A program made the position numbers and the translations under genes. Source: Leucothrix pacifica (lineage in GTDB: Bacteria; Pseudomonadota; Gammaproteobacteria; Thiotrichales; Thiotrichaceae). From it: a stretch of 32,538 nt of DNA. The notes under the pieces are model-generated. The model saw only the letters and a list, made by a program, of their open reading frames with translations, was not told the DNA's origin and did not search any database. The DNA lies in contig NZ_QGKM01000077.1 of NCBI RefSeq assembly GCF_003172875.1, positions 1-32,538 on the forward strand. The letters are read 5' to 3'. Below are positions 7,624-28,658 of this stretch, piece after piece (within the stretch, counting starts at the first letter, position 1; every line of letters starts with the position of its first letter).

Positions 7624-7645
7624 TGCACCAATGTGGAGCGGTGCG
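7624..7645. promoter_or_regulatory. Candidate NtrC-type enhancer
   Basis: TGCACC (7624-7629) and GGTGCG (7640-7645) form an imperfect dyad about 130-150 bases upstream of the predicted sigma-54 transcription start, a usual distance for NtrC sites. The half-sites match the NtrC consensus, but they are 10 bases apart rather than the usual 5. TGCACC-N5-GGAGCG is a second, weaker way to read it. Confidence 0.3.
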
Positions 7646-7748: not shown

Positions 7749-7764
7749 TGGCACTGTAATTGCT
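7749..7764 (+). promoter_or_regulatory. Sigma-54 promoter of the nirB-nirD-nasA genes
   Basis: TGGCAC-N5-TTGCT matches the -24/-12 consensus exactly, with the invariant GG and GC separated by the required 10 bases. Transcription would start near 7775. Sigma-54 control implies activation by NtrC or a similar enhancer-binding protein under nitrogen limitation, in line with the genes downstream. Confidence 0.8.
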
Positions 7765-7774
7765 TGGTTAACTC

Positions 7775-7921
7775 TATAGACCTTGCAGTCATCAACGGCG
7801 ATGACAAAGCAAACCACAATTGGCGTGTCGCCACGCATACATAAATTCGGGTAACGAAGCCCTGAGCCTATCGGTTAGACAACCGTGTGTCTCAGGGCTT
7901 TTTGTTTTTTAGGAGAGCGTA
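7775..7921 (+). promoter_or_regulatory. NasR/ANTAR-type antitermination leader
   Basis: The predicted untranslated leader contains two stem-loops with hexaloops. P1 is GTCATC-AACGGC-GATGAC (7788-7805), a perfect 6-bp stem. P2 is GGGT-AACGAA-GCCC (7849-7862), a 4-bp stem closed by a U-G pair. Both loops have A at position 1 and G at position 4, the recognition rule known for ANTAR-domain antiterminators such as NasR and EutV. The 3' arm of P2 is also the 5' arm of the terminator at 7858-7899, so the two structures exclude each other. A further hairpin (TGGCG-TGT-CGCCA, 7821-7833) lies between them. Function is inferred from structure; no ANTAR protein is encoded in the window. Confidence 0.75.
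7858..7910 (+). terminator. Intrinsic terminator in the nirB leader (attenuator)
   Basis: AGCCCTGAG (7858-7866) pairs with CTCAGGGCT (7891-7899). A nested CGGTT/AACCG hairpin (7872-7885) lies inside, and a run of T residues broken by one G follows to 7910. It lies directly before the nirB Shine-Dalgarno sequence, so it must be read through for expression. Confidence 0.85.
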
Positions 7922-10372
7922 ATGCTTAAACAAAATTTAGTCTTGATCGGAAACGGCATGGCCGGCGTGCGAACACTGGAAGAATTGCTAAAGCTGGATT
8001 CCGACCTGTACAACATCACAGTATTTGGTGAAGAACCTTATGGTAACTACAATCGCATCATGTTGTCGCCAGTGCTGGCCAGTGAAAAGACCATCGATGA
8101 GATCATGCTGAATGATGAGCAGTGGTATATCGATAACAACATCACATTGCACAAAGGCAAAAAGGTCACAGAAATCCAGCGTGGTCGCCAGCAGGTCGTG
8201 ACTGATGACGGTATTACCGTACCGTATGATCGTTTGATTATTGCGACAGGTTCTACACCGTTTATGTTGCCACTACCGGGTGCAGATAAAGAAGGCGTGA
8301 TTGGCTTCCGTGATATCAAAGACGTCAACACCATGATGAGCGCCACTGAGAACTATAAGAAGGCCGTTGTGATTGGTGGTGGTTTGTTAGGACTGGAAGC
8401 TGCAAATGGTTTGATGAAGCAAGGCATGGATGTCACGGTTGTGCATCTGGGTGGCTCACTGATGGATCGTCAATTAGATGAGCCTGCCAGTGAAATGCTA
8501 CGTCAATCGCTGGAAGAGCGCGGCATGAAGTTCTTAATGAAACACAGCAGTTCTGAAGTACTGGGTGATGAGCGTGTAACTGGTCTGCGCTTTAATGATG
8601 GCACAGAAGTTGAAGCTGATCTGTTAGTCATGGCGGTGGGCATCAAGCCAAACTTTGCGTTGGCTAAGTCTGCTGGCCTGTACTGCGAGCGCGGTATTGT
8701 GGTGAATGACACCATGCAATCCTACGATCCAAAAATCTATGCAGTAGGTGAGTGTGTACAGCATCGCGGCATCGCTTACGGACTGGTTGCACCATTATGG
8801 GATCAGGCTAAGGTTTGCGCGAATCACTTGGCGAATTTCGGTATCGCTCGTTATGAAGGTACTGTGACATCAACCAAGTTAAAAGTGACCGGTATCGAGC
8901 TATTTTCAGCAGGTGATTTTATCGGTAATGAGAATACTGAAGAAATCGTTTTCAAAGATGCTGCGACAGGTACTTATAAGAAGATTGTTCTGGAAGATGA
9001 CAAAATCAAAGGTGCTGTAATGTACGGCGACACCGTTGATGGTAGTTGGTATTTCCAGATGATGAAGGATGGCACGGATGTGTCGGCATTCCGCGATACT
9101 TTGTTATTCGGTCAGGCTCACTTGGGCGACTCTGGTCATAATCCGGAAACGCGGGTAGCTGGTCTACCGGATGATGCTGAGATCTGTGGCTGTAATGGTG
9201 TGTGCAAAGGCGACATTGTGAATGCCATTAATGAGCACAAAATCTTCACCTTGGATGAAGTACGTGCGCATACCAAAGCCTCTGCTTCTTGTGGCTCTTG
9301 TACAGGACTGGTTGAGTCATTGCTTTCTCACACAGTGGGTGGCGATTATTCTGCCACGCCAAGCACTAAACCTGTGTGTGGTTGCACCGATGCGACGCAT
9401 GATGAAGTGCGCGAAGGCATTATCAATATGCAGCTGACCACCATGAAAGCAGTACGCGAAGAATTCCAATGGCGTAACGCGGATGGTTGTGCCAGCTGTC
9501 GTCCGGCACTGAACTACTATTTACTGTGTGCATTCCCTGAAACTTACGTCGATGATCCTCAGTCACGCTTCATCAATGAGCGTGCTCACGGAAATATCCA
9601 GAAAGATGGTACTTACTCGGTTGTGCCTCGTATGTTCGGTGGTCTGTGTACGGCACAACAACTACGCGACATCGCGGATATTGCGGATAAATACAAGGTT
9701 CCTGAAATGAAGGTTACAGGTGGTCAGCGTATCGATATGTTCGGTATCAAGAAAGAAGATTTACCGCCGATGTGGAATGACTTAAGTAATGCTGGTTTTG
9801 TTTCCGGACATGCTTATGCAAAAGGTCTGCGCACGGTGAAAACTTGTGTGGGTGAGAAGTGGTGCCGTTTTGGTACGCAGAACTCCACCGGTTTGGGGGT
9901 CAAGCTGGAAGAGCTGACCTGGGGTTCATGGATGCCGCATAAATTTAAGATCGCGGTATCAGGTTGCCCACGTAACTGTGCGGAAGCCACTATCAAAGAT
10001 TTCGGTGTGGTCTGTGTGGATTCTGGCTATGAATTACACGTTGCCGGTAATGGCGGGATCAAAGTACGTGTGACAGACCTGTTATGTAAGGTGCAAACGG
10101 AAGAGGACGTGCTCGAATACTGTGCGGCGTTCACTCAGTTCTATCGTGAAGATGCACACTATCTGGAGCGAACTGCACCTTGGATTGAGCGTGTGGGTTT
10201 GGCCAAAGTACAAAAAGCACTGGAAGAACCAGAGCAGCGTAAGGCCTTGGCAGAGCGCTTTGCGATATCGCAGAAGAAAGCCCAGATAGACCCGTGGAAA
10301 GAGCGTGCACAAGGCACAGAAGCACTTGAGTTTGCACCGATTAAAGTGAGCGCATTAGGAGAGTTAGTATGA
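7922..10372 (+). CDS. nirB: Assimilatory nitrite reductase [NAD(P)H], large subunit
   Basis: The 816-residue flavo-siroheme enzyme reduces nitrite to ammonium in the cytoplasm. The N-terminus has the FAD motif GNGMAG (11-16) and a second GGGLLG dinucleotide-binding motif. Two BFD-type [2Fe-2S] modules follow (C422, C424, C457, C460, and C486, C488, C523, C526). The C-terminal ferredoxin-reductase domain carries the siroheme/[4Fe-4S] cysteines C642, C648, C682 and C686 (TCVGEKWC and SGCPRNCAEA). An AGGAG Shine-Dalgarno sequence at 7911-7915 fixes the start. The last codons overlap nirD by four bases (ATGA), indicating translational coupling. Expression is predicted to depend on sigma-54 and on read-through of the leader terminator. 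Confidence 0.97.
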   Translation: MLKQNLVLIGNGMAGVRTLEELLKLDSDLYNITVFGEEPYGNYNRIMLSPVLASEKTIDEIMLNDEQWYIDNNITLHKGKKVTEIQRGRQQVVTDDGITVPYDRLIIATGSTPFMLPLPGADKEGVIGFRDIKDVNTMMSATENYKKAVVIGGGLLGLEAANGLMKQGMDVTVVHLGGSLMDRQLDEPASEMLRQSLEERGMKFLMKHSSSEVLGDERVTGLRFNDGTEVEADLLVMAVGIKPNFALAKSAGLYCERGIVVNDTMQSYDPKIYAVGECVQHRGIAYGLVAPLWDQAKVCANHLANFGIARYEGTVTSTKLKVTGIELFSAGDFIGNENTEEIVFKDAATGTYKKIVLEDDKIKGAVMYGDTVDGSWYFQMMKDGTDVSAFRDTLLFGQAHLGDSGHNPETRVAGLPDDAEICGCNGVCKGDIVNAINEHKIFTLDEVRAHTKASASCGSCTGLVESLLSHTVGGDYSATPSTKPVCGCTDATHDEVREGIINMQLTTMKAVREEFQWRNADGCASCRPALNYYLLCAFPETYVDDPQSRFINERAHGNIQKDGTYSVVPRMFGGLCTAQQLRDIADIADKYKVPEMKVTGGQRIDMFGIKKEDLPPMWNDLSNAGFVSGHAYAKGLRTVKTCVGEKWCRFGTQNSTGLGVKLEELTWGSWMPHKFKIAVSGCPRNCAEATIKDFGVVCVDSGYELHVAGNGGIKVRVTDLLCKVQTEEDVLEYCAAFTQFYREDAHYLERTAPWIERVGLAKVQKALEEPEQRKALAERFAISQKKAQIDPWKERAQGTEALEFAPIKVSALGELV

Positions 10373-10704
10373 GTCAGTGGATAGAGATTGTAGCGCTGGA
10401 AAACATCCCGGTGTTAGGTTCACGCGTGGTAAGTGTCGACTCTGGCACAGACATTGCGTTGTTTAGATCAACGGATGATGCTGTTTTTGCAATACGTGAT
10501 GCTTGCCCTCATAAGCAAGGTCCACTGTCGCAAGGCATTATGCATGGCACGTCAGTGACTTGTCCGTTGCACAATTGGAAAATCGACCTTGCCAGTGGTT
10601 CTGCCTTTGCCCCCGATGAAGGCTGCACCAATGTGTTTCCGGTCAAAGTTGAGCAGGGCAAAGTGCTGCTTCAGCTAGAACCGGCTACAGAGAAGGTTGC
10701 GTGA
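10369..10704 (+). CDS. nirD: Nitrite reductase small subunit, Rieske type
   Basis: This 111-residue Rieske-fold partner of NirB starts within the nirB stop codon (ATGA). It keeps a full set of [2Fe-2S] ligands: C46-P-H48 and C65-P-L-H68, in CPHKQGPLSQG and CPLHNWKI. In this it resembles B. subtilis NasE and assimilatory NirD proteins rather than E. coli NirD, which lacks these cysteines. An iron-sulfur electron-transfer role alongside NirB is therefore likely. The gene ends 48 bases before nasA. Confidence 0.95.
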   Translation: MSQWIEIVALENIPVLGSRVVSVDSGTDIALFRSTDDAVFAIRDACPHKQGPLSQGIMHGTSVTCPLHNWKIDLASGSAFAPDEGCTNVFPVKVEQGKVLLQLEPATEKVA

Positions 10705-10752: not shown

Positions 10753-13449
10753 ATGTCTGAAGCAAGTGTAAGTCCAGTACGCACAACCTGTCCTTATTGT
10801 GGGGTGGGGTGTGGCGTGAATGTACAACCCGAAACGGATGGATCGTTTACGGTAAAGCCGGATAAATTGCATCCGGCTAACCAGGGAAGATTGTGTTCTA
10901 AAGGCATGGCGCTGGCAGAAACACTGGATCATCCGATGCGTTTGCTACATCCCGAGATTGCCGGTAGGGCGGTGTCTTGGGATGAGGCAAGCACTGAGGT
11001 GGCACAAAAGCTGAAAGACATCACGGCCAAACATGGGCCGGATTCGGTGGCATTTTATGTATCAGGTCAGCTACTGACTGAAGACTATTATGTTGCCAAT
11101 AAGCTGATGAAGGGATTCATTGGTTCGGCCAACATCGACACCAACTCGCGGCTGTGCATGTCATCAGCTGTTGTCGCGCACAAGCGGGCATTTGGTGAAG
11201 ATTTGGTGCCGTGTAGCTATGAAGACCTCGAACAGTGCGAATTAATTGTATTGGTCGGGACGAATACCGCATGGTGCCATCCGGTGTTATATCAGCGGAT
11301 GGTAAAAGCTAAGAAAGACAATCCATCGTTAAAGGTGGTGTTGATTGATCCGCGACGCACCCAGACAGCGGACTTAGCTGATCTGCACTTGGCCGTAAAG
11401 CCGGGTTCAGATGCATATTTGTACAATGGTTTGCTGGCGTATCTGGCAGACAATGGGCATACAGCGGCTGCTTTTGTCGCGCAACACACCGAAAATTCGG
11501 AAGGCGCAATCGAACAGGCAAAAATAAGCGCGAATGATGTTGTGGCAGTCGCTGAGCAATGCGGCTTATCGGTTGAGGCAGTGAGTGCCTTTTTCACTCT
11601 CTTTGCCTCGACCGAGAAAGTCGTTTCGGTCTTTTCCCAGGGCGTAAATCAATCCTCCAGCGGTGCAGACAAAGGCAATGCATTGATCAATTGCCACCTA
11701 CTGACGGGCAGAATTGGTAAACCTGGGATGGGACCGTTTTCATTCACCGGACAGCCTAATGCCATGGGTGGACGGGAAGTGGGTGGTCTGGCGAATCAGC
11801 TGGCCGCACATATGGACATTGAAAATCCTGAGCACCGTGAGTTAGTGCAGGAATTTTGGCAATCCCCGAGAATTCCTCAGCAACAAGGTTTAAAAGCGGT
11901 TGATCTGTTTGAAGCCATTCATGAAGGCAAGGTCAAAGCCGTGTGGATTATGGCTACCAATCCAGCCGTGAGTCTGCCGGATACCAACCGCGTTCGTGAA
12001 GCCTTAGAAAAATGTGAGTGTGTCATTGTATCGGATTGCATCGCCAATACGGATACCATGAAATACGCTGATATTCGTTTACCTGCACTGACTTGGGGCG
12101 AGCGTAACGGTACGGTGACGAATAGTGATCGCACGATTTCAAGACAGCGTCCTTTTGTGCCAGCACAGGGCGAATCAAAAGCCGATTGGCAGATAGTCAC
12201 GGAAGTTGCTCATAAAATGGGTTATGCCAAAGACTTCCCGTATCAGACATCACTAGATGTGTTTAAAGAGCATGCCACGCTCAGTGGATATAAGAATGAC
12301 GGGCAACGTTGTTTTGATATTTCTGTGTTGTCTGGTTTGTCGCGCGAAGCCTTCGACGCATTACAGCCGATGCAATGGCCTTTGAAAGCAGCGGATGCCT
12401 CGGCGATTGAAACAAGTGATGGTAGTCCGGAGGATTATATGGAAACCACACGTTTGTTTGAAGATGGATTGTTTTTCACACCTAGCCGCAAAGCGCGCTT
12501 TATTAGTGTGACGCCAACGCTGCCACAATCCGAAGCGAGTCACGAATACCCATTAGTTATGAATACGGGGCGTGTGAGAGATCATTGGCACACGCTTACC
12601 CGTACCGGTATTTCCTCGCGTCTATCACTGCATGTGAGTGAACCTACAGTGGAGATTAGTCCGCAGGATGCCAGTAGCCGGGGTTTGAAGGATGGTGATT
12701 TACTGCGGGTGCATAACCAACTCGGTGAATTACGTCTGCCTGCAAAAATCGATCAAGGTTTACAACAGGGCAATGTCTTTGTCCCGATGCACTGGAATCA
12801 GCAGTTTGGCCACTCTGCCACGGTAGGTAATGTGATTCCATCTGCGGTTGATCCATTCTCAGGTCAGCCTGAATCAAAACATGCTGTGGTTGAAATTGAA
12901 CCGCTGAATACTATTTGGCATGGTTTTATTATTTCACGACGTCAGCTCACGCTGTCTAATACTAGCTACTGGCACTGTCAGAAAGTGGATGATGCTTGGT
13001 ATTACGCCTTAGCAGGCGATCAGTTACCGGAAGATTGGGCGGGTATGAGTCGTAAGGTCTTATGTGGCGAAGGTAAAGCCAATTGGGTTGAATACTTTGA
13101 TTCTGCCCGTCAGACGTATCGTGGTGCGCGCTTTATTGGTGAATCCTTAGAAAGCTGTGTGTTTGTTGGGCCATCTGCAGCACAACTACCGGAGACGACC
13201 TGGCTGAAGCAATTATTCACGCAAGATCAGCTGACGAAGTCAGATCGCCAGAGCTTATTGTCGGGTAAGCCCGCTGTGGTAGTCGAGGATACCGGTAAGG
13301 TTGTGTGCTCCTGCTTCAATATCGGCGAAAAAACGATTCAGCAGGCTGTCCAGACTAACGGTTTGACTACTATTGAAGCAATCGGCAAGTGTTTGAAAGC
13401 AGGGACAAATTGCGGTTCCTGCATACCGGAGTTAAAAGCCTATCTGTAA
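10753..13449 (+). CDS. nasA: Assimilatory nitrate reductase catalytic subunit
   Basis: The 898-residue molybdopterin (bis-MGD) enzyme reduces nitrate to nitrite in the cytoplasm and feeds NirBD. The N-terminal [4Fe-4S] ligands are C13, C16, C20 and C48 (TTCPYCGVGCGV, GRLCSKG). The molybdopterin domain has typical family segments: SRLCMSSA, GTNTAWCHPV, GQPNAMGGREVGG and NTGRVRDHWHT. The C-terminus adds a BFD-like [2Fe-2S] module with C852, C854, C887 and C890, as in long-form NasA proteins that take electrons through an extra cluster. It has no twin-arginine signal. It follows nirD with 48 bases between and no visible promoter or terminator, so it is probably in the same transcript. A nitrate transporter is not encoded here. 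Confidence 0.95.
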   Translation: MSEASVSPVRTTCPYCGVGCGVNVQPETDGSFTVKPDKLHPANQGRLCSKGMALAETLDHPMRLLHPEIAGRAVSWDEASTEVAQKLKDITAKHGPDSVAFYVSGQLLTEDYYVANKLMKGFIGSANIDTNSRLCMSSAVVAHKRAFGEDLVPCSYEDLEQCELIVLVGTNTAWCHPVLYQRMVKAKKDNPSLKVVLIDPRRTQTADLADLHLAVKPGSDAYLYNGLLAYLADNGHTAAAFVAQHTENSEGAIEQAKISANDVVAVAEQCGLSVEAVSAFFTLFASTEKVVSVFSQGVNQSSSGADKGNALINCHLLTGRIGKPGMGPFSFTGQPNAMGGREVGGLANQLAAHMDIENPEHRELVQEFWQSPRIPQQQGLKAVDLFEAIHEGKVKAVWIMATNPAVSLPDTNRVREALEKCECVIVSDCIANTDTMKYADIRLPALTWGERNGTVTNSDRTISRQRPFVPAQGESKADWQIVTEVAHKMGYAKDFPYQTSLDVFKEHATLSGYKNDGQRCFDISVLSGLSREAFDALQPMQWPLKAADASAIETSDGSPEDYMETTRLFEDGLFFTPSRKARFISVTPTLPQSEASHEYPLVMNTGRVRDHWHTLTRTGISSRLSLHVSEPTVEISPQDASSRGLKDGDLLRVHNQLGELRLPAKIDQGLQQGNVFVPMHWNQQFGHSATVGNVIPSAVDPFSGQPESKHAVVEIEPLNTIWHGFIISRRQLTLSNTSYWHCQKVDDAWYYALAGDQLPEDWAGMSRKVLCGEGKANWVEYFDSARQTYRGARFIGESLESCVFVGPSAAQLPETTWLKQLFTQDQLTKSDRQSLLSGKPAVVVEDTGKVVCSCFNIGEKTIQQAVQTNGLTTIEAIGKCLKAGTNCGSCIPELKAYL

Positions 13450-13629: not shown

Positions 13630-14253
13630 ATGGCTAAGCAAATTAAAACAATTCTTGCTACTTCTGCATTATTAATCGGTGCTTCACAAGCTGCAGTAGC
13701 TGGTCCAAACTTATCAGGTGTTACAGTTGAAAAAGTAGGTTATGCAGGTAACGGTTGCCCGGCAGGTTCCGCTTCAGTAGTACTGGCTTCAGATAAGAAA
13801 AGTGTTTCAGTATTGTTTGATGAGTATATCGCTGAAGCAGGTGGCCACGGTCAACGTACTTTTGATCGTAAGAAGTGTGATATCGCTTTCGGTTTAAAAA
13901 TTCCTTCAGGTATCAGCGTATCTTTCATTGATGCAGACTACCGCGGATTCAACGACTTACCACGCGGTGCACGAGCCAGCTTTAAACGTGATTACTTCTT
14001 CGCAGGGACTCGCGGTGCAAGCTTGACTAAGAACTGGAGAGGTTCACGTAGTGACGACTTCCACATTAAAGATCGCATGGGTGTGTTTGCTAACGTATGG
14101 TCAGCTTGTGGTGCCGATGTCATCCTTCGCTCTAAGACATCAGCAACAGTACGTACACGCCGCGGTAATGAAGCACTGATGATGGTTGACTCAGCTGACT
14201 TGTCAGCAAAGACAGTTTACAAGTACAACTTCCGTTACAGAACATGTCGTTAA
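13630..14253 (+). CDS. Secreted DUF4360 protein, first tandem copy
   Basis: The 207 residues begin with a Sec signal (MAKQIKTILATSALL...AVA, cleavage predicted after residue 24). The mature part matches DUF4360: GYAGNGCPAGSASVVLASD, SVLFDEY, DRKKCDI, DADYRGFNDLPRGARASF, YFFAGTRG, SACGADV and a C-terminal RTCR. The cysteines in GNGC, KKCD, SACG and RTCR would suit disulfide bonds outside the cytoplasm. The molecular function of DUF4360 is unknown. It is followed by its own strong terminator. An almost identical gene lies next to it, so this is a recent tandem duplication. Confidence 0.9.
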   Translation: MAKQIKTILATSALLIGASQAAVAGPNLSGVTVEKVGYAGNGCPAGSASVVLASDKKSVSVLFDEYIAEAGGHGQRTFDRKKCDIAFGLKIPSGISVSFIDADYRGFNDLPRGARASFKRDYFFAGTRGASLTKNWRGSRSDDFHIKDRMGVFANVWSACGADVILRSKTSATVRTRRGNEALMMVDSADLSAKTVYKYNFRYRTCR

Positions 14254-14288
14254 TTCGATAACAAGATACATTAACAGGGGTCTTGTTG

Positions 14289-14329
14289 GCCGCAGCTATT
14301 GGGAAATAGCTGCGGCTTTTTTAGTTTTT
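14289..14329 (+). terminator. Intrinsic terminator of the first DUF4360 gene
   Basis: Twelve-base perfect arms, GCCGCAGCTATT (14289-14300) and AATAGCTGCGGC (14305-14316), enclose a GGGA tetraloop. Six T residues follow, then further T-rich sequence. Confidence 0.95.
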
Positions 14330-14367
14330 ATTATTAATAAATAAATATAAAAATAATTTAAATTAAA

Positions 14368-14415
14368 TGAGCCTTTTATTTAATAGTTTACGCTTTAATA
14401 AATAAGAGCAGCAAT
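14368..14415 (+). promoter_or_regulatory. Conserved upstream block, copy B
   Basis: This is the second copy of the block at 13487-13534, of the same length with no gaps. It lies 72 bases before the start codon of the second DUF4360 gene. It sits after the first gene's terminator, which implies that each paralogue has its own promoter. Confidence 0.55.
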
Positions 14416-14487
14416 TATTTAAATGGATTACTTAATAATTTATTGGCTCCTCAACTTCATTCAAATCGGGTAATAGAGGCACACATC

Positions 14488-15111
14488 ATGTTAAAGCAAA
14501 CTAAAACAGTATTAGCAACTTCAGCTCTTTTAATGGCAGCTTCACAAGCAGCAGTCGCAGGTCCAAACCTTAGTGGTATTCAGATCGAAAAAGTGGGTTA
14601 TGCCGGGAACGGTTGTCCAGCAGGGTCAGCATCTGTTGTACTGGCATCTGACAAGAAAAGCGTATCAGTATTATTTGATGAGTATATCGCAGAAGCAGGT
14701 GGCCACGGCCAACGTACCTTTGACCGTAAAAAATGTGATATCGCATTCGGTCTGAGAGTTCCTGCAGGTATCAGTGTATCATTCGTTGATGCTGACTACC
14801 GTGGCTTTAACGACCTGCCACGTGGCGCACGGGCTAGTTTTAAGCGTGATTACTTCTTTGCAGGCACACGTGGGGCAAGTTTAACTAAGAACTGGTATGG
14901 CTCGCGTAGTAATGACTTCCACATTAAAGATCGCATGGGTGTATTTGCGAATGTTTGGTCAGCCTGTGGTGCAGATGTCATTTTACGTTCTAAGACTTCA
15001 GCGACAGTAAGAACACGTCGCGGTAACGAAGCTCTGATGATGGTTGATTCAGCGGACCTGACAGCAAAGACCGTATATAAGTATAACTTCCGTTACAGAA
15101 CATGTCGTTAA
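14488..15111 (+). CDS. Secreted DUF4360 protein, second tandem copy
   Basis: The ATG at 14488 is preferred over an in-frame start 45 bases upstream, because it gives the same 207-residue length and the same signal-peptide position as the first copy. An AGAGG sequence lies upstream. The mature proteins differ at only a few positions, for example IQIEK against VTVEK, RVPAG against KIPSG, and YGSRSND against RGSRSDD. At DNA level the copies differ at many third codon positions, so protein sequence is under purifying selection after an older duplication or one kept by conversion. A UUCG-loop terminator follows. Confidence 0.9.
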   Translation: MLKQTKTVLATSALLMAASQAAVAGPNLSGIQIEKVGYAGNGCPAGSASVVLASDKKSVSVLFDEYIAEAGGHGQRTFDRKKCDIAFGLRVPAGISVSFVDADYRGFNDLPRGARASFKRDYFFAGTRGASLTKNWYGSRSNDFHIKDRMGVFANVWSACGADVILRSKTSATVRTRRGNEALMMVDSADLTAKTVYKYNFRYRTCR

Positions 15112-23285: not shown

Positions 23286-23579
23286 ATGAGTAGAAAAAGA
23301 GAACGAGTTATTCCTGATGTAATATTGATAGATTTCTCTAAGTTAAAGCTAGCTTTGCATAACTACGAAAGGCTCAAGGCTTTAAAGCATAATTGGACTA
23401 CGCCTTTCGGGATCGCTCTGTCATTATTACTTACAATTTTGGTTTCAGACTTCAAAGAAAAAATGGGTCTAGCGGGACAATGCAAACCCGCCAAAGGAGG
23501 GTTATTGATCCACGGTCACCCGGTAGCTCACAAAGCTACCTTCACCGCCCACCAGCGCACCGCTGAATACCCACGATAA
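23286..23579 (+). pseudogene. Truncated small membrane-protein gene
   Basis: The first 63 residues look genuine: a charged N-terminus, an amphipathic part (LKLALHNYERLKALKHNW) and one clear membrane segment (FGIALSLLLTILVSDF), then KEKMGL. Small membrane proteins of this kind usually continue with a second membrane helix. Here, from about 23472, the frame runs through the transcription-end region and then antisense into the last codons of the DUF11 gene, giving non-natural sequence. A rearrangement near 23472 probably removed the 3' part. A vestigial but translated 97-residue product cannot be excluded. Confidence 0.4.
23458..23491 (-). terminator. Weak candidate terminator of the DUF11 gene
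   Basis: On the minus strand GCGGG and CCCGC (23491-23487 and 23476-23472) form a 5-bp stem. A T-run follows after 8 bases (23463-23458). The distance to the T-run is longer than ideal. Confidence 0.3.
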
Positions 23580-26500
23580 GCCATCTCCTACACCAGCACT
23601 GCTCGTACAACTCATACCACCGGGCGCAGTGCCACAGTTTAGGCCGCCTTGTAACTGCGTATAAGCCGGTACCGCATCATTAATCACTAAGTCCGTCAAA
23701 GGCCCTGTCCCCGTATTACGATAGTAAATGCGGTACTCTAAAGTGTCCCCGGGCTTCGCCTGATTCGCGGTGTCTGTTTCCGCGCCACCTTGACTCACAT
23801 TGCGAACCGTTTTGCGCAATTCCAGGTTTGAAGGCCCCAGCTCAGCAGTACTTGAGGATGTTGTTGGCGCTAGAACCTGACCTGCTGTCGTGACATCTCG
23901 CACCTTCAACGACACACTGCCCGCTATGGCATTGTTGTAATCAAAATCCGCCGTAATCGTCTGAATGTATTGGTCATTCGCGGCGACATTTGCTGGCGCA
24001 TAAACCTTATTAATCAAACAAATCTCGGTACCCGCGGTCACAGGCATAGCAACGGACTGGATAGAAGACGCTGCCTCACTCCCATTCAATGTGCCGTCGC
24101 AGTTAGCATCCCTGTAAATGAGTGATGCCCAACCCGCCGTCGCATTGCCGCCACCCACATTTGTGAAAGCCACAGTGCCATTCACTGGCGTGGTGAACTT
24201 GTGATTATAAAAGACGACATTGCCCGGCAAAATCTGCCCGACATGGTTTGGCTCCAATCTCGGCTGTTGAATATCGCCAAAGTCTTGACCCGCTACACTG
24301 GTATCCACCAACGTAAATGGCGCTCGAATGCTGCTGGTGGTGGATATATAACCCGCAGGATCTCTATCAAAACCAACACCACAATTGCGTGGCACAGGTA
24401 CGCTTTCACCAAACGCTTCATACACTTGATACGTGCCTGCGAACACATTCTCAAACTGGTAGTAGCCACCGCCATTGGTGTAGGTACTCATGCAGGTATC
24501 AGAGTCTTGTCGATACAAAACAATTGCCACACGACTAATACCGGCTTCGCTGCTTTCATTCGATGTATTCACATTACTATCGACAAACACGCGGCCACTG
24601 ACGGTCGTGGTATCTATTTTAATCGCGTAGTCCTCCACTTCACCATCCGTTGCATTGCCAATGGCAGTGGCAAGCTCAGCGGCATCAGACGCCGTACGGA
24701 TACGGATAAAGCTGTCCCCCGGGCCAACATCACTAAGCCCAGTCCAATTCAATGTTGCAGAGCCACCCGAGCACGTCACGGGGTGATTACTGTTTTGCTC
24801 AGTCGTTGCGAAATCCCCGGATAAATCAAAGTCAATCCACGCAGACACGACACCACCACCTGCACACGATACAGTCACACTGTAGTCAGTGCGACCCGCT
24901 AGCAATACAGGGAAGCTGCTCACTGCATCTTCATCGTTCATGAGCGTATCTAAGTCATCACCCGTGGCACTCACACCCGCGTCACTTCCTTGCTGACTCT
25001 CTGACTCAAGGTCTGGAGAGAACAAGCCTAGGTAAACACTCGGTGAGCCGGTAAACAGGTGCATGGCGTCACCGAAGCTAATCGGTGCATCACCATAGTC
25101 AGAGCCGTATAAGATAATACTGGTCGGGATATTCTCATCACTGTTTTCGTCGTCTTCACTGCCCGTATCCATTTCATTGGCATTGCCATCACCGTCTGGG
25201 TCAATCGCGTTGAGATCACCGTTATTGGATAAGTCGGTATAGACATTCCCCACGGCATCTTCTGCCGTGACCGTGACTTGGTTAACGTAAGTCTCTGGTG
25301 ATTTATACACCTCCATCACTAACTGGAAATGCGCGGTTTCACCTTTTGCGAGTGATGAATTCGCCTGAACCAACTCGGTGACGGTTGCGCCATTGTAGGC
25401 CGTATTCACATTGATCGTGTTCGGGCCAGACACTTTGCTTAATGACACAAAATCCCAATCCTCCGTTTTCACACCAAAAATGCTACTTAAGTTTTCTGGC
25501 AAGCTAATGTTACGCAGTGTCGATAACGGACTCAGGTTTTCTAAGTTGAAGTCATACACCACCGTATATTTGAGGGGTAATGGCCCATCTGACACCGTAG
25601 CATTTTTGGCTACACCAATGGCTGGCAATTCCATTTCCGTTGTTGCATCGCTATACACCAAACCAATAATGCCATCCACACGACCACCGAATGAGTTGGT
25701 TTGCAACTGCGACGGCTCACCATTGTGCTCAAGCTCAATGCCAATGTTTCGCGTGGCCGTATTTTTAGGGAAAGTTGGCGTCAAGATACGAATCGCCGTT
25801 ACAGCGCTTAAGGCTGCCGGACAACCGCTAGTACCGGATGAGATCTCAGCTTCTGTACACCACTGTGTGCTCCCTCCCGGCTGGTTACTACTGTGTGTGG
25901 GATCAATAAAAATACTACTGGGTGCCGCATTGGTATAGAGAAAGCTCTCGTTGGCATAAGACGGCGTGACCGCTAAAAGATTCACAACCCCACTCGGTGT
26001 CGGTGTAAAATTAGTTATTGGGTTTCGTGCTTGCGTCGCTCCCGGAATATCTAAGACCGATGGGTCATCATTGATTTTGATTACACCATCACCACTAAAC
26101 GGCAAGATATCAATGAAGTCACCGGTTGAAAGGTCTGTGGAGCCAATGTTCGCAAATGACAACTCATACTCAATATTATCACCGGGCGCTACCAATGGGG
26201 TTAACGAGGTCTTCGCCACATTAAACGCACCGGAGTTACCAATCACAACCGTTCTGCTATCCGTTCGAACAGACTCATCCGAACCGTCACCCAAGCTCTC
26301 CACGAGCACGGTATTTGTCGCGCTAACCCCGTTCGGTGTATCAAATTTAGCATTGGCAGAAAATGTAATCGGTGTGATGGCACTGTCGAGTAATACATTT
26401 GGTATCGTCCACACAATGGTCGTTGTGCCATCGGGATTGACGGTGACACTGTCGGGTACTCGGTTTGACGAGTTCACCACATAAGTCAGTCTTTCTGGCA

Positions 26501-28658
26501 ACGTGTCGGTGACCACAACGTCATATGCCTGAGCAGGTGCAGGCTTCAAAATTGACGTGTGCGTCGGTGCAAGCTGAAACTCAACATTTTGCCCCGCAAG
26601 TACTGAGTTTGTATTGTCATTTGGTGTGGTTGTCTTTTCTACACGCACCAATGCTCGCGTGAGTCGTAAGCGATCACCATAAGCCTTCGTACCAGTATGC
26701 CCTGCTGGCTGATAGGAGCTGTTTACCCATGAGCTGTTATTGTAGTTGGTACGAGTCGTGTAAGCTGGCATCAAAATACCTTCCGGCAGACTCACGTTAC
26801 TCACAGGGTCAACGCCCAAGGCCACCAAGTTTAAACCAAGGTCAAAACGCGCACCGGGCGCTAAAGGCTCTAGCGCCACCACCCTGATTTTGTTCACCGC
26901 GCCAATTCCACCGGGTACATCCCGAATGTCGCTATACCAACCGCTGTTCGTATCCGACGCACCACAGGTATCCAAACGCATCTCTTCAAAGGTCGTTTGA
27001 CCATTGGTTAAAGGATTGCCGTCACCATCGGTATCGTAATAATTAATCCCGCCACTAGAGACACTTCCCCCTGAGCCGTACTCAATTTTGACCGCAACGG
27101 GTGTCGATGTTTGGTAGATCGAGTGCGCAATGGCGCCATTGTTGGCGAGGGGTTCAAAGTTATAAGTTCGGTTATCAATGCGTGAACACATGCTAAATCC
27201 TTCACCGGTATAGCCACCTGCGCCGTCATCAACAAGGCCACCGTTCCATGCCAATGCACCGTTATTGATGCCGTACATGCGATAACCATAGACTTGCGTC
27301 GGCATAACCACACCATTACCCGAGTTTTGATTGGTCATTGGCGCTAAAATTTGGCCCCGCCCCCCCGCATAATTCCTTGAGTAATAACTCGTAAAAGAAC
27401 CCCGCGTCGTAATAACGGTATAGTTATTGGTCGTGTTATTACTTAAGTTAGTTTCCGCATTATTTAAACCACTCACACCTTCCGTTGTAAGCGGCGTATA
27501 GGTGTTTCTCAGCGTGACTTCACCACCATTTGCATCGACATACGACAGTGGTATCCAATAACTGAGTAGTCCTGCAACGATATATTTTTCATCAGCCGCA
27601 ATCGCACCACCAGCGTAGTTGAAGTCGGGTGTATGGGCTGCCGATGAGTCTGCCCCTTCAATTTTTATCGAAATAGGATCGCCGGGGTTAGCTTGATCAC
27701 AGGTGTATGTCGGTATGCCTGCAACTGAGCGCTCCGGGTACGTCGTATCATAAGAGCCGTAAGGCAACGTAACACGCCCTTGTTTACCACCGTAGCGGTT
27801 TTCAAAACAACCCGGGTTGTACGATGTCGGTGCACCTGCCCAATTGACCAAGCGGTAGGGCACAGGGTCAGCGGGGTTGTTGGCATTGGCAACCGACATA
27901 TCAAACTCAATGTCTTCCGCTAAGACTTCCGTACCCTTACCGTTATCCACTTTCACCAAGATAGGGACTTGATAAATGACACCACCTTCACCCGTATCAT
28001 CATCCGTCACGATGCGATAAATCGGGTTATCGAAGGTTTTAATATCGAGGTCAAACTTCGGTCGTGCAGAAATGATGAGACGATCTGCGGTTGAGTTTAA
28101 GTCTGAGGCAACGCCTGTATTGGCGTTGGTGGCGGTCACATTTGCCATGACACGCGGTGGTTCGGTGCCATTGGCAACATCCCCGCCTAAGCGGTCACGC
28201 GTGAGTGCGGTTAGCTGTATGGGCAATGCAATAATCGACGACTGTCTAATCGAACTGCTCGGGTCACTGGCCGGATTGTTTCCAGCGATCAAACACACCA
28301 TTGTTTGCACGCCCGTTGCGGCGTCTACCGTCAAGCTTGAGCCGGTGTTACAAAATGCGGGTAAGTCTTCTAATTCAAGCTCTTTCGGGATATCCAAGGT
28401 CACGGTTGTGTTATCTAATTCACCAAAGGTTGTGAACTGGACTTCCATCGCAACAATATCAAGGGTTCTGAGATAGTCATTGGTGTCATTGGCATCGTTA
28501 CCCGGCCCATTATCCGACTCGAAGGGCACGGTACCGGTTGCCAGTGTTTTTATCTCAAATGACATATTGGCATCCGAGTCAGAAGTGCCCGCAAAAGCAG
28601 TCACACTAAGGAAGCTCAATGCACAAGCGACTAAAAATTGCTTTATTATTTTTTTCAT
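23502..28658 (-). CDS. Giant secreted surface protein with DUF11, GEVED and SdrD_B-like domains
   Basis: The 1718 residues start with a Sec signal (MKKIIKQFLVACALSFLSVTAFA, cleavage after 23). A long beta-rich, Asn/Thr/Gly-rich N-terminal region follows. DUF11-like repeats begin near residue 666 (ALVRVEKTTTPND) and 809 (FNVAKTSLTPL). A GEVED domain begins at YGDAP (about 1185) and ends at GEVEDYAI. An SdrD_B/Cna-B-like domain spans about 1350-1465 (VSGRVFVDSN, GYYQFENV, FGDIQ), and a last DUF11 begins near 1611 (LELRKTVRN). No LPXTG, RTX repeat or PEP-CTERM signal is visible, and the protein ends inside or at the edge of the last DUF11 domain. It is probably an adhesin or extracellular matrix component. 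Anchoring is unclear. Confidence 0.85.
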   Translation of the reverse strand: MKKIIKQFLVACALSFLSVTAFAGTSDSDANMSFEIKTLATGTVPFESDNGPGNDANDTNDYLRTLDIVAMEVQFTTFGELDNTTVTLDIPKELELEDLPAFCNTGSSLTVDAATGVQTMVCLIAGNNPASDPSSSIRQSSIIALPIQLTALTRDRLGGDVANGTEPPRVMANVTATNANTGVASDLNSTADRLIISARPKFDLDIKTFDNPIYRIVTDDDTGEGGVIYQVPILVKVDNGKGTEVLAEDIEFDMSVANANNPADPVPYRLVNWAGAPTSYNPGCFENRYGGKQGRVTLPYGSYDTTYPERSVAGIPTYTCDQANPGDPISIKIEGADSSAAHTPDFNYAGGAIAADEKYIVAGLLSYWIPLSYVDANGGEVTLRNTYTPLTTEGVSGLNNAETNLSNNTTNNYTVITTRGSFTSYYSRNYAGGRGQILAPMTNQNSGNGVVMPTQVYGYRMYGINNGALAWNGGLVDDGAGGYTGEGFSMCSRIDNRTYNFEPLANNGAIAHSIYQTSTPVAVKIEYGSGGSVSSGGINYYDTDGDGNPLTNGQTTFEEMRLDTCGASDTNSGWYSDIRDVPGGIGAVNKIRVVALEPLAPGARFDLGLNLVALGVDPVSNVSLPEGILMPAYTTRTNYNNSSWVNSSYQPAGHTGTKAYGDRLRLTRALVRVEKTTTPNDNTNSVLAGQNVEFQLAPTHTSILKPAPAQAYDVVVTDTLPERLTYVVNSSNRVPDSVTVNPDGTTTIVWTIPNVLLDSAITPITFSANAKFDTPNGVSATNTVLVESLGDGSDESVRTDSRTVVIGNSGAFNVAKTSLTPLVAPGDNIEYELSFANIGSTDLSTGDFIDILPFSGDGVIKINDDPSVLDIPGATQARNPITNFTPTPSGVVNLLAVTPSYANESFLYTNAAPSSIFIDPTHSSNQPGGSTQWCTEAEISSGTSGCPAALSAVTAIRILTPTFPKNTATRNIGIELEHNGEPSQLQTNSFGGRVDGIIGLVYSDATTEMELPAIGVAKNATVSDGPLPLKYTVVYDFNLENLSPLSTLRNISLPENLSSIFGVKTEDWDFVSLSKVSGPNTINVNTAYNGATVTELVQANSSLAKGETAHFQLVMEVYKSPETYVNQVTVTAEDAVGNVYTDLSNNGDLNAIDPDGDGNANEMDTGSEDDENSDENIPTSIILYGSDYGDAPISFGDAMHLFTGSPSVYLGLFSPDLESESQQGSDAGVSATGDDLDTLMNDEDAVSSFPVLLAGRTDYSVTVSCAGGGVVSAWIDFDLSGDFATTEQNSNHPVTCSGGSATLNWTGLSDVGPGDSFIRIRTASDAAELATAIGNATDGEVEDYAIKIDTTTVSGRVFVDSNVNTSNESSEAGISRVAIVLYRQDSDTCMSTYTNGGGYYQFENVFAGTYQVYEAFGESVPVPRNCGVGFDRDPAGYISTTSSIRAPFTLVDTSVAGQDFGDIQQPRLEPNHVGQILPGNVVFYNHKFTTPVNGTVAFTNVGGGNATAGWASLIYRDANCDGTLNGSEAASSIQSVAMPVTAGTEICLINKVYAPANVAANDQYIQTITADFDYNNAIAGSVSLKVRDVTTAGQVLAPTTSSSTAELGPSNLELRKTVRNVSQGGAETDTANQAKPGDTLEYRIYYRNTGTGPLTDLVINDAVPAYTQLQGGLNCGTAPGGMSCTSSAGVGDGLSWVFSGALVGGEGSFVSYRVTVDQ

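Follow-up and report, generated by a model that had tools for sequence, protein, structure and literature searches.

Wang et al. 2012 (doi 10.1128/AEM.01720-12) reportedly described NasT-mediated antitermination of the nasAB nitrate/nitrite reductase operon of Azotobacter vinelandii. The locus studied here lies in a stretch of 32,538 nucleotides, which we call the window, from the filamentous marine bacterium Leucothrix pacifica. It resembles nasAB, an operon under sigma-54/NtrC control, in that NasT antitermination is predicted for a nitrate/nitrite reductase operon. However, the operon is nirB-nirD-nasA, and we read its leader as having three hexaloops.

Control by NasS and NasT is known in Azotobacter, Pseudomonas and Paracoccus (PMC5424462, PMC3795266). 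The nasA gene of Paracoccus denitrificans resembles our locus in its NasTS control and leader hairpins. There, hairpin HI is located 137 bp and hairpin HII 91 bp before the gene; HI is essential, while mutation of HII had little effect with nitrate (PMC5424462). Bradyrhizobium diazoefficiens also has a NasT regulon with leader hairpins at several genes, but its NasT targets, namely nosR, nirA and others, are partly denitrification genes (PMC6759348). The nasF leader of Klebsiella oxytoca shares with ours the loops with A at position 1 and G at position 4 (A1/G4), a second hairpin (P2) that overlaps the terminator, and Ntr control. By contrast, its sensor is the one-component NIT-ANTAR protein NasR, where our genome encodes NasT with NasS, and two hexaloops are described for it (PMC3369936, PMC3369931). 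Dual control by Ntr and NasR in Klebsiella has already been published (PMC5424462, PMC3369936).

The eut leaders of Enterococcus faecalis, bound by EutV, are similar to our leader in the G4-contact residues of the ANTAR domain and in a last hexaloop that overlaps the terminator (PMC3369931, PMC8934654). They have two hexaloops and a linker of 5-12 nt (PMC3369931), whereas the outer hexaloops are 43 nt apart here, with a hairpin between them. ANTAR RNAs are described as dual stem-loops (PMC8164766); the EutX RNA has one further, single G4 hexaloop beside the dual motif (PMC8934654). We found no triple-hexaloop ANTAR RNA in a literature search that covered papers outside subscription, which is not proof of absence. 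Dual control is therefore known, and the new part of this locus is the hairpin in the 43-nt linker.

The leader upstream of nirB

A preliminary description of this DNA had proposed that nirB is preceded by a sigma-54 promoter, two A1/G4 hexaloops (AACGGC and AACGAA), a terminator that has its 5′ arm in common with the second hairpin, and a 43-base linker with a hairpin of its own. Each of these elements could be placed (Table 1). The linker between P1 and P2 is exactly 43 nt long (7806-7848) and contains the middle hairpin, P1b. The 3′ arm of P2, GCCC, belongs to the 5′ arm of the terminator stem, and P2 and the terminator are therefore mutually exclusive. Folded in isolation, the terminator has an energy of -24.8 kcal/mol and P2 one of -5.7 kcal/mol, so P2 would need a protein to form. 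The leader as a whole folds better than shuffled sequences (z -2.85), 3 of 200 shuffles being equally good.

Table 1. Features of the nirB operon and its predicted control region, in positions of the window
Feature	Position	Strand	Remarks
NtrC-like enhancer site (predicted)	7624-7640	+	TGCACCAATGTGGAGCG; 10/12 against what we take to be the NtrC consensus
Sigma-54 promoter	7749-7764	+	TGGCACTGTAATTGCT; -24 TGGCAC and -12 TTGCT, spacing N5; GG and GC ten bases apart
P1, first hexaloop hairpin	7783-7812	+	loop AACGGC at 7794-7799; upper part GTCATC-AACGGC-GATGAC (7788-7805), extended by lower stem UUGC/GCAA (TTGC/GCAA in the DNA)
P1b, middle (linker) hairpin	7823-7836	+	GCGU-GUCGCC-ACGC; hexaloop with purine at position 1 and G4 (R1/G4), here G1
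P2, predicted antiterminator hexaloop hairpin	7849-7862	+	GGGU-AACGAA-GCCC; stem invariant in 9/9 nirB leaders
Intrinsic terminator	7856-7910	+	GAAGCCCUGAG...CUCAGGGCUUUUU; T-runs 7899-7903 and 7905-7910
nirB, nitrite reductase large subunit	7922-10372	+	TIGR02374, E 2.6e-285, above cut-off; ATG at 7922
nirD-like small subunit	10369-10704	+	Rieske_2, E 1e-15; overlaps the end of nirB by 4 nt
nasA-type nitrate reductase	10753-13449	+	Molybdopterin, E 7.5e-77; C-terminal Fer2_BFD, E 5.3e-15

Compared with the usual marks of an ANTAR leader, P1 and P2 supply the two hairpins with six-base A1/G4 loops, and the final hairpin has its 3′ arm within the 5′ arm of the terminator, which starts at 7856. 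The short linker between hairpins is missing between P1 and P2, and is present in the window only if P1b and P2, which are 12 nt apart, are taken as the pair. Published limits for this linker are 5-12 nt in eut leaders (PMC3369931) and 2-25 nt in the search criteria used for actinobacteria (PMC8164766).

Standard searches did not recognize the leader. It has no match to any Rfam family, even at E<=1, and a simple terminator scan with a loop limit of 8 did not list its terminator, probably because the terminator loop is larger than that limit. A lone sub-threshold Rfam match (E<=1) to a snoRNA at 8563-8620, inside nirB, was taken as chance.

The putative enhancer site, which was scored against a 12-letter sequence that we presume to be the NtrC consensus, begins 125 nt upstream of where the -24 element begins, and 0 of 200 shuffles were as good. 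In all nine nirB promoters that carry the leader, the best predicted NtrC site scores 9-11 of 12 and lies at a distance of 90-136 nt (shuffle p 0.00-0.05). RpoN and NtrC are both encoded in the genome, above cut-off. By sequence, the -24/-12 element, the two proteins and the predicted upstream site thus provide what sigma-54/NtrC control calls for.

We fetched 30 full-length nirB genes, including that of the window, from 57 genomes, and nine of them have the leader directly upstream. When these nine leaders (window included) are aligned, the TGGCA and TGC of the promoter, the terminator core, and A1 and G4 in the loops of both P1 and P2 are invariant, and the P1 loop AACGGC is identical throughout. 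Changes on both sides of a pair are seen in four of the six upper pairs of P1 and in two of the four pairs of P1b, which makes 6 of 14 pairs of the named structure overall. This structure pairs in 99.2% of alignment cells, versus 25.5-48.4% when partners are slid. Three measures exceed all 500 shuffles, namely cells paired, cells with both-side changes, and the covariation score. The count of pairs with both-side changes was reached by 17 of 500 shuffles, and that of pair types by 98 of 500, which is nothing unusual. Since P2 never varies among the nine leaders, covariation speaks neither for nor against it.

Unaided, RNAalifold recovers P1 and the middle hairpin from both the core alignment and the full leader, together with P2 in the former and the terminator in the latter. 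On both alignments it closes the middle loop to four bases by a pair between loop positions 1 and 6, which is kept in six of the nine leaders and broken in three.

NasT, NasS and the distribution of the leader

The genome, whose assembly is estimated to be 100% complete, encodes a single ANTAR protein (PF03861, E 2.1e-19 to 3.3e-19). This protein has 194 residues, in which Pfam reports Response_reg (E 9.9e-10) and ANTAR only, and no NIT domain. The gene that follows, with a 4-nt overlap, encodes a protein of 409 aa (NMT1_2, E 2.7e-83) with NrtA and CmpC as relatives in the PDB. Thus a receiver-like domain is joined to ANTAR, and the adjacent gene encodes an NrtA-like, predicted nitrate-binding protein, as in NasS/NasT systems; the fusion of ANTAR to a NIT domain that characterizes NasR is not seen in the one ANTAR protein of the genome. 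Judged by predicted domains and gene order, the protein is NasT with a NasS partner, and not NasR. Neither NasT nor NasS had an NCBIfam match above cut-off (for NasT, among the best 25 of 30 matches).

The matches of NasT to EutV (6wsh) and NasR (4akk) have E-values of 2.2e-22 and 1e-10, respectively. NasT keeps EutV residues R142, K149, E160, Y164 and M172, as placed by hand on the alignment; these have roles at G4 or in binding (PMC8934654). At N173, R175 and R177, whose joint mutation abolished binding, NasT differs from EutV, and so does NasR. The preliminary description had likened the locus to Klebsiella nasF, and had made its reading depend on an ANTAR protein in the genome and on conserved hexaloop residues in relatives. 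Dual control by sigma-54 and an ANTAR leader holds up, while NasR as the protein has to give way to NasT and NasS; the genome has its one ANTAR protein, and A1/G4 are kept in all nine aligned nirB leaders.

We built a covariance model, R1, from the nine nirB leaders and a second, R2, from 26 leaders obtained with R1. In its own genome, R1 matches the nirB leader only, while R2, up to E 10, has two matches: one before nirB and one before nrtA, beside nasTS. Both leaders carry a sigma-54 element and a terminator. The 26 leaders lie upstream of nirB (11), nrtA (9), an MFS transporter (3), and, one each, nasA, a formate/nitrite transporter and a DsrC-like gene; because so many of them are related in this way, counts over the 26 are not independent. 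R1 matches above about E 0.06 (L056-L059, L067, L068, L071-L075) showed no convincing order of promoter, hairpins and terminator, and were dropped.

R2 matches 2 of 369 genomes of the class at E<=0.01, and both belong to this family and have an ANTAR protein; this search used strict filters and scored 11 candidates per genome among the matches listed. Within 80 named NasT loci, the best 80 of at least 573 relatives, R2 has strong matches only in loci of its own family and weak ones elsewhere. Among 63 genomes of the family, the leader (E<=0.001) is present in 20, a count that leaves out G017 (E 0.063), and an ANTAR protein above cut-off in 21. Both occur in 17 genomes, the leader only in 3, the ANTAR protein only in 4 and neither in 39. 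In the 30 nirB genomes, an ANTAR protein is encoded in 9 of 9 with the leader and in 6 of 21 without a leader directly upstream (Fisher p 0.0007, ignoring relatedness).

One of the three leader-only genomes is 74% complete. The other two carry what seem to be deletion relics of an nrtA leader: in one, the leader is followed by an nrtA whose likeness stops after 16 codons, and in the other, P1 has a broken loop-closing pair and the 3′ arm of a terminator is missing downstream (both read by eye). These two relics, L188 (G419, 1501-1750) and L189 (G421, 1501-1640), are in genomes of the genus Thiothrix (g2) without an ANTAR protein. Conversely, L079 (G015, 90-668) encodes a NasT-like ANTAR protein in a genome that was searched and has no convincing leader of this type.

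Over Leucothrix, Thiothrix and Thiofilum, the candidate regulon comprises nirB, nrtA, a formate/nitrite-type transporter, an MFS transporter, nasA and a DsrC-like gene, although not all members were found in each genome. The DsrC-like gene (PF04358) would be an unexpected member of a nitrate regulon. It follows a sigma-54 element and a triple-hexaloop leader with the middle loop GUAGUU (L061 in G025, 1501-2038). In two loci, two NasT leaders stand back to back on opposite strands within less than 600 bases: L064 (G014, 1146-1601), before nrtA and an MFS transporter, and L092 (13155-13736), before nirB and an MFS transporter.

Among 20 nirB genes without a leader directly upstream (L012-L031), 17 are preceded, at a distance of about 60-105 nt, by a sigma-54-like element, and no ANTAR match was obtained in 15 of these 17 genomes. 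The attenuator therefore looks like a separable module.

The linker hairpin and its possible role

The preliminary description had regarded the linker hairpin as a possible variant of the ANTAR motif. From comparison of the linkers, we argue instead that it is a third ANTAR-type hexaloop that is conserved in leaders of the family. By script, we took from each of 25 linkers its best hairpin with a six-base loop and 4 or more bp, ignoring the letters of the loop. Such a hexaloop was found in 22 linkers, and in all 22 it has a purine at position 1 and G4, while 0.51 of 25 R1/G4 middle hexaloops are expected from shuffled linkers. With two loops assigned by hand, there are 24 middle loops, all with G4; 15 of them start with A and 9 with G, 23 have a pyrimidine at position 5, and positions 2, 3 and 6 vary. 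In the nrtA leader of Leucothrix arctica, the middle loop (on 3 bp and a bulge) was assigned by hand, and so was the position of P2 in the L092 leader. A purine occupies position 5 in 25 of 26 P1 loops and 19 of 26 P2 loops; the A1/G4 of P1 and P2 in all 26 leaders was a requirement of the parse and not a test.

Position 1 of the middle loop is G in the nirB leaders of the window and of L. arctica (G006). In the EutV structure, G4 is the recognized base and A1 makes no specific contact (PMC8934654), so G1 in P1b need not be fatal. It has been suggested that A1 prevents pairing across the loop, and that a pair between positions 1 and 5 would hinder flipping of G4 (PMC8934654). Such a pair is possible in the middle loop because of its pyrimidine at position 5.

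Minimum-energy folds of the 25 linkers, read by eye, close positions 1 and 6 in 11 cases and leave the hexaloop open in 10, while the other 4 show neither. The window's loop, GUCGCC, can also close to a UCGC tetraloop. By comparison, the nrtA leader of the same genome has the middle loop AGUGUA on a 10-bp stem and is drawn as an open hexaloop; the genome therefore carries a clear third hexaloop. Of the three leaders before an MFS transporter, two have no hexaloop on their middle hairpin, and the third has AGUGCU. The middle hairpin also lacks a hexaloop in the leaders of G050 and G054 (read by eye). Leaders outside the 26 mostly agree with this; AAUGGC, GAUGCA and GCGGUA are examples of their middle loops. 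In one of these, the Thiofilum nrtA leader, P2 has G1, and at L196 no leader was read at the position examined by the script.

P1 and P2 are 33-53 nt apart in the 25 parsed leaders. The spacing between P1b and P2 is 5-16 nt in the 23 leaders measured, and at least 14 nt in 4 of these. The hairpins of eut leaders are 5-12 nt apart, and an eutP linker of 3 or 14 nt hurt induction (PMC3369931); 20 nt added to a eut linker abolished antitermination in vitro (PMC8934654).

We also scanned the 80 named NasT loci and five fetched loci by script for a P2 and terminator before an ORF. One or more further A1/G4 hexaloops stand upstream in 26 of the 35 resulting candidates, where 2.29 would be expected, and two or more in 8, against an expectation of 0.07; these expectations come from shuffles that ignore relatedness. 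Nine have no upstream A1/G4 hexaloop; the script also yields false candidates, and L151 was counted twice because its first hexaloop was also called as P2. The eight triple candidates come from Sulfuricellaceae, Marinomonas, Thiothrix, Inquilinus, Billgrantia, two unclassified Gammaproteobacteria and G056, those of Inquilinus (L099) and Billgrantia (L137) being weak, with atypical loops. Leaders of Acidihalobacter (L093), Alcanivoracaceae (L116) and Halomonas eurihalina (L107) have two hexaloops, and three leaders of the Halomonas group (L119, L125, L128) have a possible third. With 8 of 35 triple and others dual, the triple form is recurrent: it is neither private to the window nor universal.

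We consider it very probable that the leader is a nitrate-responsive attenuator of nirB-nirD-nasA, in a circuit that combines Ntr control with NasS/NasT antitermination. Release of NasT by nitrate, binding of NasT and activation by NtrC are inferred by analogy with the described systems. When nitrogen is short, phosphorylated NtrC about 120 nt upstream would activate sigma-54 RNA polymerase at the promoter (7749-7764). Without nitrate, NasS would hold NasT, the terminator (7856-7903) would form and transcription would end before nirB. With nitrate or nitrite, NasS would let go of NasT, and free NasT would stabilize P2, such that the terminator loses its 5′ arm and the operon is read. P1, with its extended stem, would recruit NasT to the nascent RNA, and P1b might then hand NasT on to P2, giving an order of recruitment, relay and antitermination. 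The relay by P1b is the least certain part of the mechanism, and our doubts about it slightly outweigh our belief. We propose it because only P1b lies near P2 at a distance where ANTAR hairpins are known to cooperate.

Two rival explanations concern the leader as a whole. It could belong to a NasR-type (NIT-ANTAR) system like that of Klebsiella nasF, given that the leader logic is identical and the operon is nitrate-related, but with a receiver-type N-terminus on the only ANTAR protein found, and a NasS-like gene next to it, we regard this as highly improbable. The idea that the hairpins are due to chance, the leader being merely a constitutive terminator or an unrelated 5′ UTR, is scarcely credible. 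A..G hexaloops are short motifs and could in principle arise in this way, but covariation and the conservation in nine of nine leaders speak against it, as do the R2 matches in just two genomes of the class, each with its ANTAR protein, and the relics in two of the three leader-bearing genomes that have no such protein.

The other rivals accept the attenuator and differ on the middle hairpin. The leader might be an ordinary dual-hexaloop NasT leader in which this hairpin has no binding partner and, as a folded spacer, only makes the long linker shorter. The tetraloop fold in the window points in this direction, as do the folds of 11 of 25 linkers and the RNAalifold consensus, which close positions 1 and 6, and the middle hairpins without a hexaloop in two of three MFS leaders and in G050 and G054. 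However, a spacer would need no G4, whereas the search that was blind to loop letters returned R1/G4 in 22 of 22 hexaloops even though positions 2, 3 and 6 and the stems vary, and leaders of some other lineages have three plain A1/G4 loops. We find the spacer somewhat less likely than not. Alternatively, the middle hairpin could lower NasT occupancy or hold a second NasT dimer, as a decoy or memory, and so tune the nitrate threshold instead of relaying. A second EutV dimer may occupy the recruitment hairpin (PMC8934654), the Paracoccus NasT oligomer is consistent with a hexamer (PMC3795266), and the R1-Y5 consensus makes P1b a distinct, possibly weaker class of loop. Nevertheless, the short distance between P1b and P2 argues for a cooperative role, and we think a decoy or memory unlikely.

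Extended beyond this locus, the relay reading would mean that some NasT-type nitrate leaders form a class of their own among ANTAR RNAs, with three hexaloops: a long recruiting hairpin, a middle relay hairpin with the loop rule R-N-N-G-Y-N and an antiterminator hairpin, along which NasT moves during transcription. We offer this class tentatively, as a somewhat doubtful proposal. If it is true, the unit of two hexaloops known from the literature would be a shortened version of a longer relay. It would also bear on a puzzle in EutV, whose dimer cannot touch both hexaloops at once, yet the spacing of the hexaloops matters; a hand-over from the recruitment hairpin to the antiterminator hairpin has been proposed (PMC8934654). 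A natural leader with three successive hexaloops, a distant outer pair and a different rule for the middle loop would be a ready test of that hand-over model. The leaders described here also suggest that covariance searches built on two hexaloops and a short linker may mis-pair or miss nitrate leaders.

Other genes in the window

For the nasA-type protein, all equivalogs listed are below their own cut-offs (Fdh-alpha first, NasC second), and its name is thus taken from context. Just 3′ of the nitrate operon, 13630-15111 encodes two tandem DUF4360 proteins of similar length. A NACHT-domain protein with a C-terminal SNaCT11 domain, a type linked to antiviral defence, is encoded at 70-1413. A 1718-aa protein matching SdrD_B, GEVED and DUF11 (23502-28658) is possibly a surface protein.
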